Assembly: GCA_946644025.1 (NCBI GenBank)
Contig: CAMPCG010000187.1
Span: forward strand, 1-6,055
Origin: an uncultured Prevotellaceae bacterium
Lineage (GTDB): Bacteria > Bacteroidota > Bacteroidia > Bacteroidales > Bacteroidaceae
Length of the DNA stretch: 6,055 bases
Direction of reading: 5' to 3'
The stretch's first letter is position 1. Each line of letters starts with the position of its first letter. Under the pieces are notes generated by a model. That model ran no database searches. It saw nothing but the letters and a program-made list of their open reading frames with translations, and was not told where the DNA came from. Position numbers and translations under genes: made by a program. Positions 1 to 6,055 of the stretch are shown in pieces.

Positions 1-658
1 CATGCCCTACCTCTACAGCATGGCGGGATGGGTACACCTCAGCGACTACAGCATGATGCGCGCACTGGTGATGGACTTCGGCAGCGACACGCAGGTACGC
101 GACGTCAAAGACCAATGGATGTTCGGCCCGTCGCTCATGGCCTGCCCCGTCAGCGAATACAAGGCCCGCAGCCGAGCCGTGTACTTCCCCAAGCAATGCG
201 GGTGGTATGACCTCTACACGGGTGAGCAAATCGTCGATGACAAATTGACAAGCCGCAACTTAATCGTCTCGGCCCCCTACGACCGCATACCCGTCTTCGT
301 GCCGCAGGGCAGCATCATCCCCTTCGGCCCGGCCATGGAGTGGAGCGACGAGAAGCCCGCCGAACTCATCAACCTCTACGTCTATAGCGGGCGCGACGCA
401 CGGTTCACCCTCTACGAAGACGAAGGCACGAACTACAACTACGAGCGGGGACGCTATGCCACCATCGACATCAGCTACGACGACACCGCGCGCACCCTCA
501 CCATCGGACAGCGAAAGGGCTCGTTCGACGGGATGCTCAAGCAGCGGCGCTTCAACATCGTCTACGTCACGCCCGACAGCCCCAAGCCCCTCAACATGGA
601 CAGCCAGCAGGGCACAATGGTGAAATACGACGGCAAGGAAACGACCACAAAGCTATAA
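1..658 (+). CDS. GH31 family alpha-glycosidase (alpha-xylosidase-like), C-terminal part only
   Basis: This is the last 218 codons of a glycoside hydrolase family 31 enzyme; the reading frame enters from the left edge, so the Met at base 2 is internal and not a start. GH31 enzymes remove terminal alpha-linked xylose or glucose from oligosaccharides. What is visible is the end of the catalytic barrel (MPYLYSMAGW, then MMRALVMDF, then DQWMFGPSLMACPV at about residues 37-50), the beta-sandwich (WYDLYTGEQ, then VFVPQGSIIPFG at about 98-109) and a DUF5110-like tail (LYVYSGRDARFTLYEDEGTN onward, about 125-200). The catalytic nucleophile and acid/base lie upstream, outside the window, so activity and substrate cannot be judged. 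The wording of the DQWMFGP region resembles Bacteroidota alpha-xylosidases more than starch-type glucosidases, but this is from memory of the family. It ends in TAA, 90 bp before the next gene, which has its own promoter. Confidence 0.9.
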   Translation, partial: MPYLYSMAGWVHLSDYSMMRALVMDFGSDTQVRDVKDQWMFGPSLMACPVSEYKARSRAVYFPKQCGWYDLYTGEQIVDDKLTSRNLIVSAPYDRIPVFVPQGSIIPFGPAMEWSDEKPAELINLYVYSGRDARFTLYEDEGTNYNYERGRYATIDISYDDTARTLTIGQRKGSFDGMLKQRRFNIVYVTPDSPKPLNMDSQQGTMVKYDGKETTTKL

Positions 659-693
659 AATACCGGCAGGAGATGCAAAAATAAGCACGTATT

Positions 694-725
694 CTTGTGC
701 AGTTCCCATTTTTTTCGTACTTTTG
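694..725 (+). promoter_or_regulatory. Bacteroidota-type housekeeping promoter for the GH105-DUF4861 operon
   Basis: The -7 element TACTTTTG (718-725) matches the Bacteroidota consensus TAnnTTTG exactly. A -33 element CTTG (694-697, consensus TTTG) lies 20 bp upstream, inside the usual 19-21 bp spacing, and a run of seven T lies between them (709-715). Transcription would begin near 730-733 and leave a leader of under 20 nt before the ATG at 749. This supports ATG 749 as the true start, since the longer in-frame reading from 695 would begin upstream of the transcript. The leader is A-rich with no Shine-Dalgarno sequence, as is normal in this phylum. Confidence 0.72.
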
Positions 726-748
726 CCCGAAAATTCAGAACACTGACC

Positions 749-3175
749 ATGAAGCAAGCTATCATTTCCTTAGTCCTAATCATGCTGATGATACCCTTGG
801 CAGAGGGGCGCACACGCAAGAAACAGGCGGTGCAGACGCCTACGCCGTCGACCATCGAAATCATCAAGCAGGTAAACGACTACTGGCAGCAACACCACCG
901 GCCACAGGTGCGCGCCTTCTGGGACGACGCCGCCTACCACACCGGCAACATGGAGGCCTACCGCCTGCTGGGAAACGCCCGCTGGCTGGAGTACAGCACC
1001 ACCTGGGCACGCCACAACCGGTGGATGGGTGCCACGGAGCAGGACCCCGCAAAATGGAAATACAAGACCTACGGCGAAGGACCGCAGCACGTGCTCTTCG
1101 GCGACTGGCAGATATGCTTCCAGACCTACCTCGACCTCTATGAGATTGAGAAAGGAGAAATGACAAATTATAAATATGATTACCAGCAGGGGCAGCGGGC
1201 TGCGCTTGCCGATAATCATATCTATCATTTCTCACCTATCACCTATAATTACAAGATTGCCCGTGCCATCGAAGTGATGGACACCGAGTGCCGCTCGCAG
1301 GCCACCGACTTCTGGTGGTGGGCCGACGCACTCTATATGGTCATGCCCGTCTTCACCAAGCTGTACAAGACCACGGGCGAAGTGAAGTTCCTGGACAAGC
1401 TCTACGACAACTTCCGCTGGGCCGACGAGCTGATGTACGACTCGCTGGAGCAGCTCTATTACCGCGACGCGAAGTACATCTTCCCCAAAGTGAAGACCGC
1501 CAGCGGCGGCAAGAGCTTCTGGGCACGCGGCGACGGCTGGGTGCTCGCCGGACTGGCAAAGGTGCTGGCCGACATGCCCCAGGACTACCCCCACCGCCCG
1601 TTCTTCGAGCAGCGCTTCCGCCAGCTGGCCGAGGGCGTGGCCCGCGTGCAGCGACCCGGAGGCTACTGGAGCCGCTCCATGCTCTGCGAAGAGGACGCAC
1701 CGGGACCGGAGACCAGCGGAACGGCCTTCTTCACCTACGGTATGCTCTGGGGAGTGAACCACGGACTGCTGGAACGCGAGAAATATGTGCCCGTCATCGA
1801 CAAGGCATGGAAATACCTCACCACGACGGCCCTGCAGTCCGACGGCAGCGTGGGCTTCGTGCAGCCCATCGGAGAGAAGCCCGACCCCACCAAGACCGTC
1901 GACGCCCACTCGCAGGCGAACTTCGGCGTAGGAGCATTCCTGCTTGCCGCCTGCGAGCACCTGCGCTTCGAGGACAGTTCTGTAGATTGCGGTACTACCG
2001 CAATAAACTTGACCGTAGAGAACACCAGCAATGAGTTCCGCCAGCAAGTGGTCGAGATTGACGCGCAGGAGATTTACAAGCGCTTAGGCATACAGGGCGG
2101 ACGCCAGTTCGTCGTCCTCGACCCCGCCAAGCTGGAGCTGCCCTACCAGCTGTCCTACGACGGCAAGGTGCTCGTCGATGTCGGCGTTAGCCCCCGCAGC
2201 ACGCTCAAGCTCACCGTCCAAAAGGGTTCGCCCAAGACCTACCCCACCGTCTGTTACGGCCAGCTCTACCCCGAGCGCAAGGACGACTACGCCTGGGAGA
2301 ACGACCGCGCAGCCTACCGTGCCTACGGCCCCGCCCTGCAGAAGTCGGGTGAGCGCTCATTCGGCATAGACGTGTGGTCGAAGAATACGCCCGAGCTGGT
2401 GGTGGAGCAACGCTACTGGACCGAGGACATGGTGATGATGCCCACCGTGGAGCGGCTGCGACGCGAGAACCGCCACTACGGCGACTCGGTCTATCGCACC
2501 TTTTCCTATCACCACGACCACGGACGCGGCATGGATCTCTACCGCGTAGGCGCCACGCTGGGATGCGGCACACCGGCACTCATGCTGCCCGGCGGCGAAC
2601 TGAAATATCCCTACTGCTTCGAGAAATACACCATCCTGGACAACGGCCCGCTGCGCACTACCGTGCAGCTGGACTACGGCAAGACGACTTTCGGCACAGA
2701 CAGCATCACCGAGCACCGCATCATCTCGCTCGACAAGGGCTCCAACTTCTGCCGCACAACGGTGTGGTACGACGGCATGACGCAGCCCGCACGGCTGGCA
2801 TCGGGCGTGGCACTGCACGCTGAGGCCTACGGCGGAAAGGCCGACGCCACTGCCGACCGCATCGTGGCAAAGGACTACGTGGCCTACGCCGACCCGACGG
2901 ACAACCCGCGCGTGAACAGCTGCCAGCTCTTCGTGGCAGCACTGTTCCCCCAGGAAAGCGTAGAGACCACCACACAGCTCTTCGACAAACCCCACGACGG
3001 CTCCGAGGGACACCTGCTGGGCATCCACAATAATTATATAGGGAAGCCCTACACCTACTACTTCGGCTCTGCATGGTCGAAGAACGACGTGCGCACCATG
3101 CAGGAGTGGCAGCAGCGCATCGAGTGGACCCTGCGCTCGCTCAGCAAACCTCTTGTTTGGAAGATTGACAATTAA
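749..3175 (+). CDS. Secreted two-domain enzyme: GH105/GH88-type unsaturated uronyl hydrolase fused to DUF4861
   Basis: An 808-residue exported protein. The start at 749 gives a clean signal peptide (MKQ, a hydrophobic stretch to about residue 18, then LAEGRTRKK) with no lipobox Cys. Residues about 30-408 form a GH88/GH105-like (alpha/alpha)6 domain. Family enzymes hydrate and release the 4,5-unsaturated uronic acid left by pectin lyases. WWWADALYMVMP (189-200) holds the probable catalytic Asp193 (equivalent to Asp143 of YteR), and FWARGDGW (257-264) provides Arg260 and Trp264, spaced like the sugar-binding Arg213/Trp217 of YteR. Residues about 430-800 match DUF4861, with a striking HHDHGRGMD motif at 588-596; its function is not known to me. 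Compared with my memory of homologues, residues about 136-168 are extra and are encoded by a heptamer inverted repeat. The next gene starts 8 nt downstream. The exact substrate (rhamnogalacturonan, ulvan-like or other) cannot be fixed from sequence. Confidence 0.88.
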   Translation: MKQAIISLVLIMLMIPLAEGRTRKKQAVQTPTPSTIEIIKQVNDYWQQHHRPQVRAFWDDAAYHTGNMEAYRLLGNARWLEYSTTWARHNRWMGATEQDPAKWKYKTYGEGPQHVLFGDWQICFQTYLDLYEIEKGEMTNYKYDYQQGQRAALADNHIYHFSPITYNYKIARAIEVMDTECRSQATDFWWWADALYMVMPVFTKLYKTTGEVKFLDKLYDNFRWADELMYDSLEQLYYRDAKYIFPKVKTASGGKSFWARGDGWVLAGLAKVLADMPQDYPHRPFFEQRFRQLAEGVARVQRPGGYWSRSMLCEEDAPGPETSGTAFFTYGMLWGVNHGLLEREKYVPVIDKAWKYLTTTALQSDGSVGFVQPIGEKPDPTKTVDAHSQANFGVGAFLLAACEHLRFEDSSVDCGTTAINLTVENTSNEFRQQVVEIDAQEIYKRLGIQGGRQFVVLDPAKLELPYQLSYDGKVLVDVGVSPRSTLKLTVQKGSPKTYPTVCYGQLYPERKDDYAWENDRAAYRAYGPALQKSGERSFGIDVWSKNTPELVVEQRYWTEDMVMMPTVERLRRENRHYGDSVYRTFSYHHDHGRGMDLYRVGATLGCGTPALMLPGGELKYPYCFEKYTILDNGPLRTTVQLDYGKTTFGTDSITEHRIISLDKGSNFCRTTVWYDGMTQPARLASGVALHAEAYGGKADATADRIVAKDYVAYADPTDNPRVNSCQLFVAALFPQESVETTTQLFDKPHDGSEGHLLGIHNNYIGKPYTYYFGSAWSKNDVRTMQEWQQRIEWTLRSLSKPLVWKIDN
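1141..1250. repeat. Heptamer-based inverted repeat inserted in frame in the GH105 coding region
   Basis: This AT-rich island sits in a GC-rich gene. Its left arm reads as 7-base units (GAGAAAG 1148-1154, GAGAAAT 1155-1161, GACAAAT 1162-1168, TATAAAT 1169-1175). Its right arm reads as complementary-type units (CTATCAT 1222-1228, TTCTCAC 1229-1235, CTATCAC 1236-1242, CTATAAT 1243-1249). The arms pair: 1155-1163 with 1225-1233 (9 of 9), 1174-1190 with 1205-1221 (14 Watson-Crick plus one G-U of 17), and 1192-1196 with 1199-1203 (5 of 5) around a 2-nt centre. The unpaired bulges are 1164-1173 and 1222-1224. It encodes residues of about 132-169 without breaking the frame. No transposase or clear target duplication is visible. 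Confidence 0.75.
1986..2004. repeat. Perfect 19-bp palindrome at the GH105/DUF4861 linker
   Basis: ATTGCGGTA (1986-1994) and TACCGCAAT (1996-2004) are perfect reverse complements around a single C at 1995. The palindrome encodes residues 413-419, exactly between the end of the GH105 domain and the start of DUF4861, in a short stretch with less GC-biased codons than either side. A smaller one, ACAG-TT-CTGT, lies just upstream at 1974-1983. The role is unknown. It could be an operator-like site, a scar of the domain joining, or chance. Confidence 0.6.
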
Positions 3176-3183
3176 AGAAAGAC

Positions 3184-4512
3184 ATGAAAACGACAATACG
3201 GACTGTCAAGCGATGCCTGGTGCTTGCCCTTCTGCTGCTCTGCACGCAGGGCCTGCTGGCGCAAACCACCACGATAGAGCACAAGGTGAAGAAGAAGGAG
3301 ACCATCTTCGGAATTGCCCGCGACTATGGTCTCACCCTGCAGCAGCTCATCGATGCTAACCCGAAGATGAACACGCCGGGCTATCAGCTGAAGAAGGACG
3401 AAGTGCTCACAATACCCCTCTCGGCCGGCCTGGCCAAAGGGAAGGCCTCTGCCCTGGGCCGCACCATCCGTCTGGGCGTGATGCTCCCCCTGCACAACAT
3501 CAACGGCGACGGCCACCGCATGGTGGAATACTACCGCGGCGTGCTCATGGCCTGCGACTCGATGAAGAAAGAGGGCATCTCCGTCGACGTGAGGGCATGG
3601 AACCTGGCCGAGAACGGCGACCCGGAAGAGCTGCTGAAAGACAAGAACGCGCAGCAGCTGGACATCATCATCGGTCCGCTCTACTCGAAGTTCATGGAGC
3701 CGCTGAGCAACTTCGCCAAGAAGTACGACATCCTGCTCGTGGTGCCCTTCTCCATCCATGCGCCGCAGCTGTCGAGCAACAAGAACATCTTCCAGATTTA
3801 CCAGGCCCCGGAGAGCATGACCGACGTCACGGCCCGCCGCTGTGCCGAGTGGTTCCGCGACTACCACCCCATCATCGTGGACTGCCAGGACACCACGAGC
3901 ACGAAAGGCGCCTTCACCACCGCCCTGCGCCGCCAGCTGGAGCAGCACGACGTGCTCTACAACGTCACCAGCCTTAACACCGCCGAGGACAACTTCGCCA
4001 AGGCGTTCGTGGCCAACGCGCCCAACCTGGTGGTGCTCAACACGGCGCGCTCTCCCGAGCTGCTGCGCACCTTCGCCCGGCTGAAACGCCTTCTTGCATC
4101 GCGCCCCAACCTGGAGATAGCCCTGTTTGGCTATACCGAGTGGCTGATGTATATGAACCAGCAGAAGGACAACTTCCACAAGTTCAACGTCTACATCCCG
4201 TCCTATTTCTACACCAACATGCAGTCGCCCCTGGCCATCCGTCTGGAGCGCCGCTATGCGAGCACGTTCGGTCAGCCCATGCAGCAGGCCCTGCCCCGCT
4301 TTGCCCTCAGTGGCTTCGACCACGCCGTGTTCTTCCTTCGCGGCCTGAGCAAGTATGGCAAGAGCTTCGACGGCATGGCGGGCCGCTTCAGCTACCAGCC
4401 GGTGCAGACGCCGCTGTGGTTCGAGCGCATTGCCGGCGGCGGCCACCAGAACCGTGCCTACATGTTTGTACACTACAAGCCCGACGGCACCATCGAGGCA
4501 ATCAATTATTGA
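3184..4512 (+). CDS. LysM domain protein with periplasmic binding protein (PBP1) fold
   Basis: A 442-residue exported protein. The signal peptide is residues 1-26 (basic start, Leu-rich core, LLA before Gln27). A LysM domain follows at about 31-78 (HKVKKKETIFGIARDYGL, then LIDANP, then KKDEVLTIP), a fold that binds the N-acetylglucosamine backbone of peptidoglycan. After a linker (80-93), residues about 94-440 look like a type I periplasmic binding fold related to the amino-acid ABC transporter receptor family (Peripla_BP_6-like): RLGVMLP at 96-102, EYYRGVLMACDSM, and DIIIGPLYSKF from 160. No permease or ATPase gene is present nearby, so transport is not supported. A cell-wall-anchored sensor or structural role is equally plausible. 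It starts 8 nt after the previous stop, and its TGA stop lies inside the heptamer repeat that also supplies the next start codon. No Cys lipobox is seen, so it should be soluble or wall-bound in the periplasm. Confidence 0.85.
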   Translation: MKTTIRTVKRCLVLALLLLCTQGLLAQTTTIEHKVKKKETIFGIARDYGLTLQQLIDANPKMNTPGYQLKKDEVLTIPLSAGLAKGKASALGRTIRLGVMLPLHNINGDGHRMVEYYRGVLMACDSMKKEGISVDVRAWNLAENGDPEELLKDKNAQQLDIIIGPLYSKFMEPLSNFAKKYDILLVVPFSIHAPQLSSNKNIFQIYQAPESMTDVTARRCAEWFRDYHPIIVDCQDTTSTKGAFTTALRRQLEQHDVLYNVTSLNTAEDNFAKAFVANAPNLVVLNTARSPELLRTFARLKRLLASRPNLEIALFGYTEWLMYMNQQKDNFHKFNVYIPSYFYTNMQSPLAIRLERRYASTFGQPMQQALPRFALSGFDHAVFFLRGLSKYGKSFDGMAGRFSYQPVQTPLWFERIAGGGHQNRAYMFVHYKPDGTIEAINY

Positions 4513-4579
4513 AAATGAAAGATGAAACGCTATAAGCTCCTGACAGGTTTATCATTTATCATTTATCATCTATCATTTA
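4508..4579. repeat. Heptamer inverted repeat spanning a stop codon, start codon and signal peptide
   Basis: The left arm is three heptamers, ATTGAAA (4508-4514), ATGAAAG (4515-4521) and ATGAAAC (4522-4528). The right arm is four tandem heptamers, TTTATCA at 4548, 4555 and 4562 and TCTATCA at 4569, followed by TTTA (4576-4579). Bases 4513-4528 can pair with 4547-4564 (imperfect, one 2-nt bulge and one A-A mismatch) around an 18-nt loop. The left arm contains the TGA of the upstream gene (4510-4512) and the ATG of the downstream gene (4522-4524). The right arm encodes the hydrophobic core LSFIIYHLSF of its signal peptide. The two-arm, 7-base-period layout is the same as in the element at 1141-1250. 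Confidence 0.78.
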
Positions 4580-5310
4580 GCCCTGCAGCGGCCCAGGTGG
4601 GCGACCACCGCAGCGAGTTTGCCGTCGGTGTGAACGGCGGCTACGTCATGAGCCAGGTGGGCTTCCTGCCCGAGGTGCCGCAGAACATGCATCCCGGCAA
4701 GACTTTTGGCGTGACGATGCGCTACACGTCGGAGAAATACTTCAAGAGCATCTGCGCCATCGTGGCCGAGGTGAACTACGCCCAGATGGGCTGGAAGGAG
4801 CGCATCCTCACCCGTCAGGACGAGCCCGTCATCAACGCCGAGACCGGCCTTGCCGAGGCCTATAGCCGCAACCTGGACTACATACAGATACCCGTCTTTG
4901 CCCGTCTGGGCTGGGGCCGCGAGCGTCGCGGCCTTCAGGTCTACGCCCAGGCCGGGCCTCAGGTGGGCTTCTGCATCAGAGAGAGCACCGAGGCCAACTT
5001 CGACCTGCACAACCCCAACACCTATTCCCGTATCTCGCTCACCTCAAGCTCGTTGGAGAACGCCTCCAACATGTACTTCATGCCCTTAGAGAAGAAGTTC
5101 GACTACGGCATCGCGGTCGGCCTGGGCCTGGAGTTCTCTCACACGAAGGTGGGCCACTTCCTGCTCGAGGGCCGCTACTACTACGGTCTTGGCAACATCT
5201 ACGGGAGCACCAAGCGCGACTATTTCTCCATATCGAACTATAGCTCCATTTACGTGAAGCTGACATACCTGATGGACATCAGTCGATCCAATAACTCCAA
5301 AATCAAATAA
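4522..5310 (+). CDS. Outer-membrane beta-barrel protein (porin family, PF13568-like)
   Basis: A 262-residue protein. Its signal peptide (residues 1-24, ending AAA before Gln25) is unusual because its hydrophobic core, LSFIIYHLSF (10-19), is encoded by tandem TTTATCA heptamers. The mature part is rich in alternating aromatic and polar residues with Gly turns, typical of a small 8- to 10-stranded barrel: EFAVGVNGGYVMSQVGF, then SICAIVAEVNYAQMGWKE, then LDYIQIPVFARLGWG, then LQVYAQAGPQVGFCI, then FDYGIAVGLGLEF, then FLLEGRYYYGLGNIYG, and a final strand IYVKLTYLMDI. This matches Bacteroidota porin-family barrels (the OMP_b-brl_2 group that also includes PorT). I see no basis for calling it PorT of type IX secretion. 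Function is unknown; it sits in the outer membrane. ATG 4522 is preferred over ATG 4515, which is out of frame. The gap to the previous gene is 9 nt and to the next 3 nt. Confidence 0.85.
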   Translation: MKRYKLLTGLSFIIYHLSFSPAAAQVGDHRSEFAVGVNGGYVMSQVGFLPEVPQNMHPGKTFGVTMRYTSEKYFKSICAIVAEVNYAQMGWKERILTRQDEPVINAETGLAEAYSRNLDYIQIPVFARLGWGRERRGLQVYAQAGPQVGFCIRESTEANFDLHNPNTYSRISLTSSSLENASNMYFMPLEKKFDYGIAVGLGLEFSHTKVGHFLLEGRYYYGLGNIYGSTKRDYFSISNYSSIYVKLTYLMDISRSNNSKIK

Positions 5311-5313
5311 TCT

Positions 5314-6055
5314 ATGTTCAAAAACCATCCCAAGGGGCTGCTACTTGCCGCCCTCAGCAACATGGGCGAGCGTTTCGGCTACTACATCATGAACGCCGTG
5401 CTTGCCCTTTTTCTGTGTTCCAAGTTTGGTCTGAGCGACGGCCAGAGTGGTTTCATCGCCGCCATGTTCCTCACTGCCATCTACGTGCTGAGCCTTGTGG
5501 GCGGCTACATAGCCGACCGCACCCAGAACTACAAGGCCACCATTGCCTGGGGTCTGGTCATCATGGCCAGCGGCTACGTGCTGCTGTCCATCCCCGTGCT
5601 GGCCACTCCCGACAACTCGTCGATGCTCCTGGCCTTCACCGTCTTTGCCCTGGCGCTCATTGCCTGTGGTAACGGTCTGTTCAAGGGCAACCTCCAGGCC
5701 ATCGTGGGCCAGATGTACGACAACTTCGAGGCCGACGCCAAGAAGGAAGGCCCCGAGAAGCTGAAATGGGCTCAGGGCCAGCGCGACGCCGGTTTCCAGA
5801 TTTTCTACGTGTTCATCAACATCGGTGCGCTGGTGGCTCCGTTCATCGCCCCCCTGCTGCGCAGCTGGTGGCTGAACGTCCACGGCCTGGCCTACAACGC
5901 CGACCTTCCCAAGCTGTGCCATGCCTACATCAGCGGCAGCATCAGCGACGGCGAGATGTCCAACCTCATGGAGCTGGTGGCCAAGGTTGGGGGCGACGGC
6001 AGCGACCTGTCGGCCTTCTGCACGCAGTACCTCGACGGGTTCAACACCGGCATCC
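5314..6055 (+). CDS. Proton-coupled oligopeptide transporter (POT/PTR2, MFS), N-terminal part
   Basis: The first 247 codons of an inner-membrane peptide transporter; the frame is open to the window edge and the C-terminal half is missing. POT proteins import di- and tripeptides with protons. Evidence is the NMGERFGYY signature in helix 1 (residues 16-24, the ExxERF proton-site region), MFS-like GGYIADRTQNYK after helix 2 (63-74), and the PTR2 signature FYVFINIGALVAP in helix 5 (164-176). Five membrane segments are visible at about 8-35, 43-67, 75-97, 103-127 and 160-183. The first Glu of ExxERF is Asn16 here; I recall this as normal in the Bacteroidota subgroup. After helix 5 there is an unusually long polar stretch (184-247). 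ATG 5314 follows the previous TAA by 3 nt, so it is probably co-transcribed and translationally coupled. Confidence 0.9.
   Translation, partial: MFKNHPKGLLLAALSNMGERFGYYIMNAVLALFLCSKFGLSDGQSGFIAAMFLTAIYVLSLVGGYIADRTQNYKATIAWGLVIMASGYVLLSIPVLATPDNSSMLLAFTVFALALIACGNGLFKGNLQAIVGQMYDNFEADAKKEGPEKLKWAQGQRDAGFQIFYVFINIGALVAPFIAPLLRSWWLNVHGLAYNADLPKLCHAYISGSISDGEMSNLMELVAKVGGDGSDLSAFCTQYLDGFNTGI

Follow-up and report, generated by a model that had tools for sequence, protein, structure and literature searches.

The window analysed here is a stretch of 6,055 nucleotides from an uncultured Prevotellaceae bacterium (NCBI GenBank assembly GCA_946644025.1, contig CAMPCG010000187.1, positions 1 to 6,055 of the forward strand), in which a gene for a protein with GH105 and DUF4861 domains contains, at 1153-1249, a palindromic block of 97 bp that leaves the gene intact. 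Given the evidence set out below, this block very likely belongs to a family of palindromic repeats, non-autonomous and dispersed in the genomes of rumen Prevotellaceae; the present copy lies in frame in the GH105 gene and would be translated as an extra loop of the enzyme. The gene and the parts of the element are as follows.

749-3175, plus strand: gene for a GH105 (PF07470) and DUF4861 (PF16153) protein of 808 aa (open reading frame (ORF), Pfam, 120 listed homologues)
1153-1249, plus strand: palindromic element, 97 bp, in frame (93.8 bits with the covariance model R1, this copy being among the 13 training copies of the model; alignment with 5noa_A)
1147-1176, plus strand: left arm, worn TGAGAAA-type heptamers (Tandem Repeats Finder (TRF), period 7 at 1147-1168; lag-7 test)
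1177-1183, plus strand: inner junction TGATTAC, common to the dispersed copies
1184-1211, plus strand: 28-nt core with a small GC-rich hairpin (core length in the copies; folding)
1212-1218, plus strand: inner junction ATAATCA, which is GTAATCA in most copies (dispersed copies)
1219-1249, plus strand: right arm, worn TTTCTCA-type heptamers (TRF, dispersed copies, lag-7 test)
1161-1234, no strand: inverted repeat with arms 1161-1196 and 1199-1234 (repeat search; z-scores of folding)
1325-1327, plus strand: codon of Asp193 (aligned with Asp143 of YteR through the offset of the 5noa_A alignment; the title of 2gh4 names D143N)

The element and the extra loop of the GH105 enzyme

The GC content of the host gene is 0.61 and drops to 0.40 across 1150-1249. 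The original prediction, made from the letters of the window alone, had described an AT-rich block with 7-base periodicity at this place; the low GC content and the lag-7 matching, which in either arm is higher than expected from 2000 shuffled sequences (p 0.0025 and 0.02), agree with it, but the periodicity of the arms is imperfect and worn, and the strongest lag-7 signal of the window lies instead at 4547-4579. The complementary arms had been placed at 1155-1190 and 1205-1233, close to the best inverted repeat listed above, the arms of which are 36 nt long, 81% complementary and 2 nt apart. These arms amount to terminal inverted repeats, as in a miniature inverted-repeat transposable element (MITE), and the stretch 1147-1249, folded alone, is more stable than each of 200 dinucleotide shuffles (z -3.4 as DNA and -4.9 as RNA).

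At the protein level, about 30 residues had been judged to be extra, and comparison with homologues and a structure prediction had been proposed as checks. In the alignment with 5noa_A, a relative of solved structure that together with 4q88 takes the top Foldseek ranks, query residues 136-167 (32 residues, bases 1154-1249) stand opposite two chain residues (133-134), that is, 30 extra residues in place of a two-residue turn. The alignment has 121 rows, made up of the query and of 120 homologues listed from a total of 2991, and one of the listed rows is identical to the query; the loop is short in 91 rows and longer in 30. In the structure prediction (mean pLDDT, the predicted local distance difference test, of 81.7, from 49 sequences), the modelled insert is a low-confidence linker between helices 117-135 and 171-182, with residues 140-166 at pLDDT <50. 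Asp193, which is invariant in 49 of 49 alignment rows, follows about 25 residues after the inserted loop, much as had been foreseen for a new surface loop 24 residues before this residue, except that the site is not particular to this insert: other species have different inserts at the same loop. Because Asp193 comes after the helix that the loop precedes, the loop would lie on the face away from the active site, a placement read from the helix order.

In a quick tree of the GH105 homologues (SH-like approximate likelihood ratio test (SH-aLRT) support only; the inserted columns and P0001, the row identical to the query, left out), the loop is filled in 29 of 120 rows, and the fewest changes that account for this distribution number 17, at least 10 of which are forced by well-supported branches. 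The view that an element landed here in frame is upheld by the preserved frame and by the lack of the loop in most listed relatives; the turn of the empty allele has been replaced, however, and not just split, and the landing itself is read from the distribution. Between the window and the orthologous locus L001, the nonsynonymous and synonymous divergence (dN and dS) of the element codons is 0.115 and 0.34 (few sites), compared with 0.038 and 0.75 for the downstream codons and 0.065 and 0.95 for the upstream codons. This pattern suggests a weaker constraint on the protein in the element, perhaps combined, as far as so few sites can tell, with constraint or conversion at the DNA level. In this enzyme, the loop is probably neutral or nearly so.

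Dispersal, placement and reading frames of the family

For the proposed search of the host genome for further copies, sister genomes and a second copy in the window (see below) served in its place. When the L001 copy was compared with eight sister genomes, full-length relatives were found at unrelated places. One of the genomes, G001, contains two further copies, one 91% identical over 87 bp and the other 88% identical over 96 bp, and another, G002, holds other full-length copies while its own GH105 loop is empty. Junction and core are 80-91% identical at unrelated places within one genome. The architecture of the family can be written as (TGAGAAA)n-ta-TGATTAC-core-GTAATCA-ta-(TTTCTCA)n. Of 18 distinct copies, 10 have a 28-nt core, and the cores of the others range from 4 to 70 nt. 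The small non-autonomous palindromic element built from heptamers that had been postulated is thereby recognized as a dispersed, heptamer-armed repeat with no gene of its own. At a threshold of E <= 0.01, with both strands counted, the model R1 (13 copies, window copy included) finds matches in 36 of 47 genomes, that is, in 36 of the 43 Prevotellaceae (genomes named Prevotella, Prevotellaceae or Xylanibacter) and in none of the 4 others (Alistipes, two Chitinophaga and Sphingobacterium). Three of the 36 positive genomes supplied training copies; among the positives is a cultured strain, Xylanibacter brevis ATCC 19188 (G041).

We mapped 67 copies relative to genes, namely script-called ORFs standing in for annotation: 24 are inside genes, 15 at a gene N-terminus and 28 intergenic. 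These places were deduplicated by hand among the R1 matches listed, come from 12 of the 36 positive genomes and leave about 22 more listed places outside the set; the L111 copy, classed as intergenic, extends over the start of an ORF of 403 aa and should probably be placed with the N-terminal copies, as is its counterpart in L117. Because R1 was built mostly from internal copies, the proportions of the three classes are subject to bias.

The two classes of genic copies use different frames of the element. All 17 anchored internal copies are read in an open, hydrophilic frame A (KLEMRNEKYDY...NHISHFSPLIS), the motif of which is also read in the 7 internal copies that the script left unanchored, and all 13 anchored copies among the 15 N-terminal ones are read in frame B, which is open and ends in a hydrophobic stretch (MRNMIT...VIIFLISHFSFLIS). 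The third frame is stopped by the TGA of the heptamer, and both strands give nearly the same frames because the element is nearly palindromic. The length of the R1 match equals 1 modulo 3 in 22 of 24 internal versus 7 of 28 intergenic copies, a difference to which the definition of the classes itself contributes (see below). Of the 28 intergenic copies, 19 have convergent ORFs on their two sides, an arrangement found in 80 of the 435 pairs of neighbouring ORFs in these stretches (Fisher p 2.8e-9), and the convergent copies often abut both stop codons.

Several other repeats were seen alongside the family. In Chitinophaga solisilvae, two heptamer-armed hairpins of a GAATTAC type (L051, 1064-1212 and 10789-10929) extend the architecture beyond Bacteroidales; they have common heptamers but different, long and nearly perfect inner stems. 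At L017 9449-9681, in a genome with no R1 match, a 22-copy (GGTGAGA) heptamer array faces a shorter inverted array, a different flavour of the same inverted-heptamer layout, and at L009 13420-13560 (CATTTAT)n heptamers alternate with GGCCGCAGGCCG in a tandem hybrid array of palindromes and heptamers. Tandem arrays with 21-nt units were found in Prevotella loci (L007 8380-8489, L009 8723-8825, L005 11341-11422 and L017 5689-5764); in the TRF tally, periods 21 and 22 are common alongside 7.

Host loops and leader peptides

Fourteen host proteins, which account for 15 of the 24 internal copies, were scanned with profiles. NCBIfam matches over the cut-offs comprise LigA (by its NCBIfam name the NAD-dependent DNA ligase, with two copies in one gene), RecG, IspG, XseA (exonuclease VII large subunit), an IGHMBP2-family helicase and a sugar porter, to which Pfam adds a glycogen synthase, a GH2, a GH3-family enzyme, a GH67, a GH43, a PIF1-like helicase, a second transporter and a family-2 glycosyltransferase. 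The hosts of internal copies have open frames across the insert and intact flanking domains.

Orthologues were sought in 30 genomes each, with matches in 26 for LigA, 29 for the GlgA-like glycogen synthase, 27 for IspG and 29 for RecG (for the last, the matches of G027 and G042 are paralogue-like only, at 39%). At the second LigA site (CPECGTPLV-RYEGEA-AWYCPN), the loop is short in 18 of 26 genomes, slightly longer in G024 and occupied by a long insert in seven, of which that of G001 belongs to the present family, those of G006, G008, G012 and G014 are unlike inserts, and those of G005 and G007 fold no better than chance. Length also varies at the first LigA site, at two RecG loops, at two GlgA-like loops and at an IspG loop, and the present family occupies the same GlgA-like position in G002 and G018. 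In general, many relatives are short at the loops of five genes, and others are filled by unlike, often palindromic inserts. The eight sites examined in these five genes include 46 filled loops, defined by nine or more residues over the base length (L073, at +8, is so uncounted); 27 of the 46 fold at z <= -2, a level reached by 6 of 45 control stretches taken from these genes (p 1e-7). Eight of the filled loops belong to the present family, and all eight reach this level; of the other 38, 19 do.

Other GC-rich palindromic insert families, among them the TPNPSQGEG...SPLPSGGAGGG and TLPQPLPVGRG types, were encountered in the same loops of the LigA, GlgA-like and RecG genes (L104, L113, L197 and L328). 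The first LigA site of G002 (L202) has an arm-only loop, EEIRMKNEE, which looks like the remnant of a collapsed element.

The N-terminal copies supply a different part of their host proteins, with the ATG coming from the left arm and a hydrophobic run (e.g. VIIFLIFHFSF) from the right arm, after which apparent lipoprotein or AxA-type cleavage sites can be read by eye. A worn copy of this kind is present in the window itself:

4508-4576, plus strand: second, degenerate copy over the start and signal-peptide codons of an outer-membrane barrel gene (ORF 4522-5310) (R1 34.2 bits, E 1.1e-5, filters off; TRF (TTTATCA)4.6 at 4548-4579)

The L001 orthologue of this barrel gene, a neighbour of the GH105 gene, has a full copy with a 70-nt core, and another neighbour, a LysM gene, has an ordinary leader in the window and, by eye, a half-element leader in L001. 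On comparison of these sequences, the two neighbours suggest the process by which element-derived leaders could arise.

Proposed spread of the copies, comparable known systems and significance

Taken together, the initial observation is confirmed and its interpretation supported, the mechanism of insertion aside. Under the explanation that we favour, a dispersed non-autonomous palindromic family, copies would spread through machinery acting in trans, and selection would keep three kinds of them: those in intergenic gaps, mostly convergent ones; frame-A copies that keep the reading frame in protein loops able to accommodate about 25-40 additional residues; and copies read in frame B at gene starts, to which they contribute both the start codon and the leader's hydrophobic core. 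The placement of the three kinds is as described above, and selection is their presumed cause.

A candidate source of such machinery, the REP-associated tyrosine transposases (RAYT, PF01797; REP, repetitive extragenic palindromic sequence), found no support: 14 Y1_Tnp matches were found in 8 of 10 genomes, none with an element in the locus (about 1.5 kb on each side at most). An autonomous parent was sought with a strict half-site motif in the stretches examined, which gave 10 paired copies and 21 solo ones; this count was not used, many of the solo ones having a partner just beyond the tolerance of the motif. Covariation as proof of an RNA role was likewise set aside, with 0 of 18 predicted pairs showing a double change; when a stem of 23 pairs was considered, double changes were present at 2 of them, a number that shuffles also reach. 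The ends of the element are not sharp.

Several observations weigh against the explanation of a mobile family. No target-site duplication was seen at the LigA, GlgA-like and GH105 sites, where the orthologues compared are not close strains, and filled alleles are without 12-18 bp of the empty loop. Besides the absence of the element from all 14 Y1_Tnp loci, G019 has 21 R1 matches and zero Y1_Tnp matches, and compensatory changes in the stem are few. The nearest homologue of the window enzyme, P0002, has an empty loop. The distribution is patchy as well: 7 of 43 Prevotellaceae genomes are without an R1 match, and so are 106 of 121 genomes sampled from the G041 family (15 positive under stricter filters, G041 included). 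Metagenome-assembled genomes (G001, G002, G003, G018, G030 and G042) are the source of every one of the 24 internal copies, and the only cultured genome examined, G041, has 3 intergenic copies and 1 N-terminal copy. Finally, the frame and length results are in part imposed by the classification, because the internal class requires an ORF running across the copy, and 11 members of this class were among the training copies of R1 (of the other 13, 11 have a length of 1 modulo 3).

A bolder extension would be that certain protein loops act as docking sites. At least five unlike inserts are seen at one LigA loop, and the situation is similar at RecG, IspG, GlgA-like and GH105 loops. Possibly, then, a given loop is taken over again and again by palindromic families unlike one another, each newcomer displacing its predecessor on the spot and insertion being steered, beyond the filter of selection, by target structure or by exchange between palindromes, while the second frame would serve as a portable start codon and signal-peptide core, such that one family gives rise to both loops and export signals. 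We put this forward tentatively and consider it less likely than not.

Among the alternatives, the hairpins might have been made and kept in place, through slippage of heptamers and copying of an arm by template switching, with no mobility involved. The heptamer flavour of the arms differs between genomes and even within one, the two Chitinophaga hairpins share heptamers and differ in their inner stems, and neither a transposase nor a target duplication was found; yet slippage cannot account for the copies, because unrelated places in one genome share junction and core at 80-91% identity, and we regard this origin as improbable, although it may contribute to the form of the arms once an element has inserted. 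The element could also be a regulatory hairpin, conserved and selected wherever it is found, such as a terminator acting in both directions or a site where a protein binds. This would fit the strong folding and the position of 19 of 28 intergenic copies between convergent ORFs, often touching both stop codons; it fits poorly with 24 of 67 mapped copies within ORFs, with cores variable in length and sequence, with the lack of any Rfam match at the gathering threshold in the window and with the scant covariation, and appears quite improbable. Lastly, this glycoside hydrolase might have a surface loop of the usual, fast-evolving kind, the DNA of which is palindromic by chance. The variable length and sequence of the loop among homologues and the raised dN of the element codons could be cited for this reading, but it is already contradicted by the dispersed copies, the same DNA being found between genes and in unrelated proteins such as LigA, RecG and IspG; the dS of the element (few sites) is also lower than on either side, and the reading hardly deserves credence.

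For the mobile family that we favour, precedents exist. Protein-coding palindromes have been described mainly from Rickettsia and Wolbachia, with scattered cases elsewhere, and the title of a 2002 paper reportedly calls them 'a unique but recurrent feature' in Rickettsia. Judged by the review descriptions drawn on here, the nearest known kind is the Rickettsia palindromic element (RPE) with its Wolbachia counterpart. RPEs are described as 105-146 bp long, intergenic as well as in frame in conserved genes, with terminal inverted repeats, no gene of their own and a target duplication that is unknown, and Wolbachia is credited with a counterpart (PMC2229807, PMC10969869). The present family likewise is a palindrome of about 97 bp with many copies, in frame in unrelated conserved genes, and with insert-free orthologues (GH105, LigA, GlgA-like, IspG and RecG). 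Set beside the same descriptions, it differs in its phylum and sequence, in its heptamer-built arms, variable cores and second frame used for leader peptides, and in the recurrence of unlike families at the same loops. By this analogy, something equivalent to the protein-coding palindromes of Rickettsia seems to exist in the sister bacteria studied here.

The GTAG/CGTC REPs are reported as short dispersed hairpins, enriched between convergent ORFs, the ends of which supply stop codons; some lie inside replication and repair genes, a DNA ligase among them, and Bacteroidetes are among the five phyla with the CGTC type (PMC3733652). Hairpins, convergent placement, stop codons at the repeat ends and copies in repair genes including DNA ligase are shared with the present family, and the published intragenic REPs may include a Bacteroidetes case. 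The present family differs from these REPs in length (about 97 bp versus 20-40 bp), in the lack of a linked RAYT and in the absence of the GTAG/CGTC tag from the arm ends, as seen by eye in the window copy and in the consensus of the 13-row alignment. The ERIC (RU-1), YPAL (RU-2) and RU-3 elements of enterobacteria are presented as MITE-like, with open frames fused into genes, and one YPAL copy is part of a predicted signal peptide (PMC2759123, PMC2229807); the present family has another sequence and other hosts, and the descriptions of these elements that we drew on mention no heptamer arms.

BrickBuilt, a MITE of Porphyromonas gingivalis, is an inverted-repeat element with a tandem repeat of a 23-nt unit and is stated to be always intergenic (PMC4596501); compared by description, it resembles the present family in its Bacteroidota host and in the inverted repeat with tandem units and differs in that 24 of the 67 copies mapped here are internal. 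The TAACTGA heptamer repeats of Beggiatoaceae, Cyanobacteria and five Bacteroidetes are given as direct arrays, most of which, in the genome chiefly studied, lie a short way upstream of start codons (PMC4679880); as far as this description extends, the seven-base tandem units are common to both, whereas the present family has another heptamer and inverted pairs. In a literature search that left most subscription journals outside, no titles or abstract openings reported in-frame palindromes in Prevotella.

A family of gut Bacteroidota present in LigA, RecG and IspG, at the same loops across species, would amount to a large natural experiment on selfish DNA becoming protein, which bears on the questions of which loops tolerate insertion, how often and with what effect. 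Some loops and leader peptides of ordinary enzymes would derive from repeats, a matter of consequence for gene calling and structure prediction, and a direct comparison can be made between enzymes that have the loop and those that lack it.

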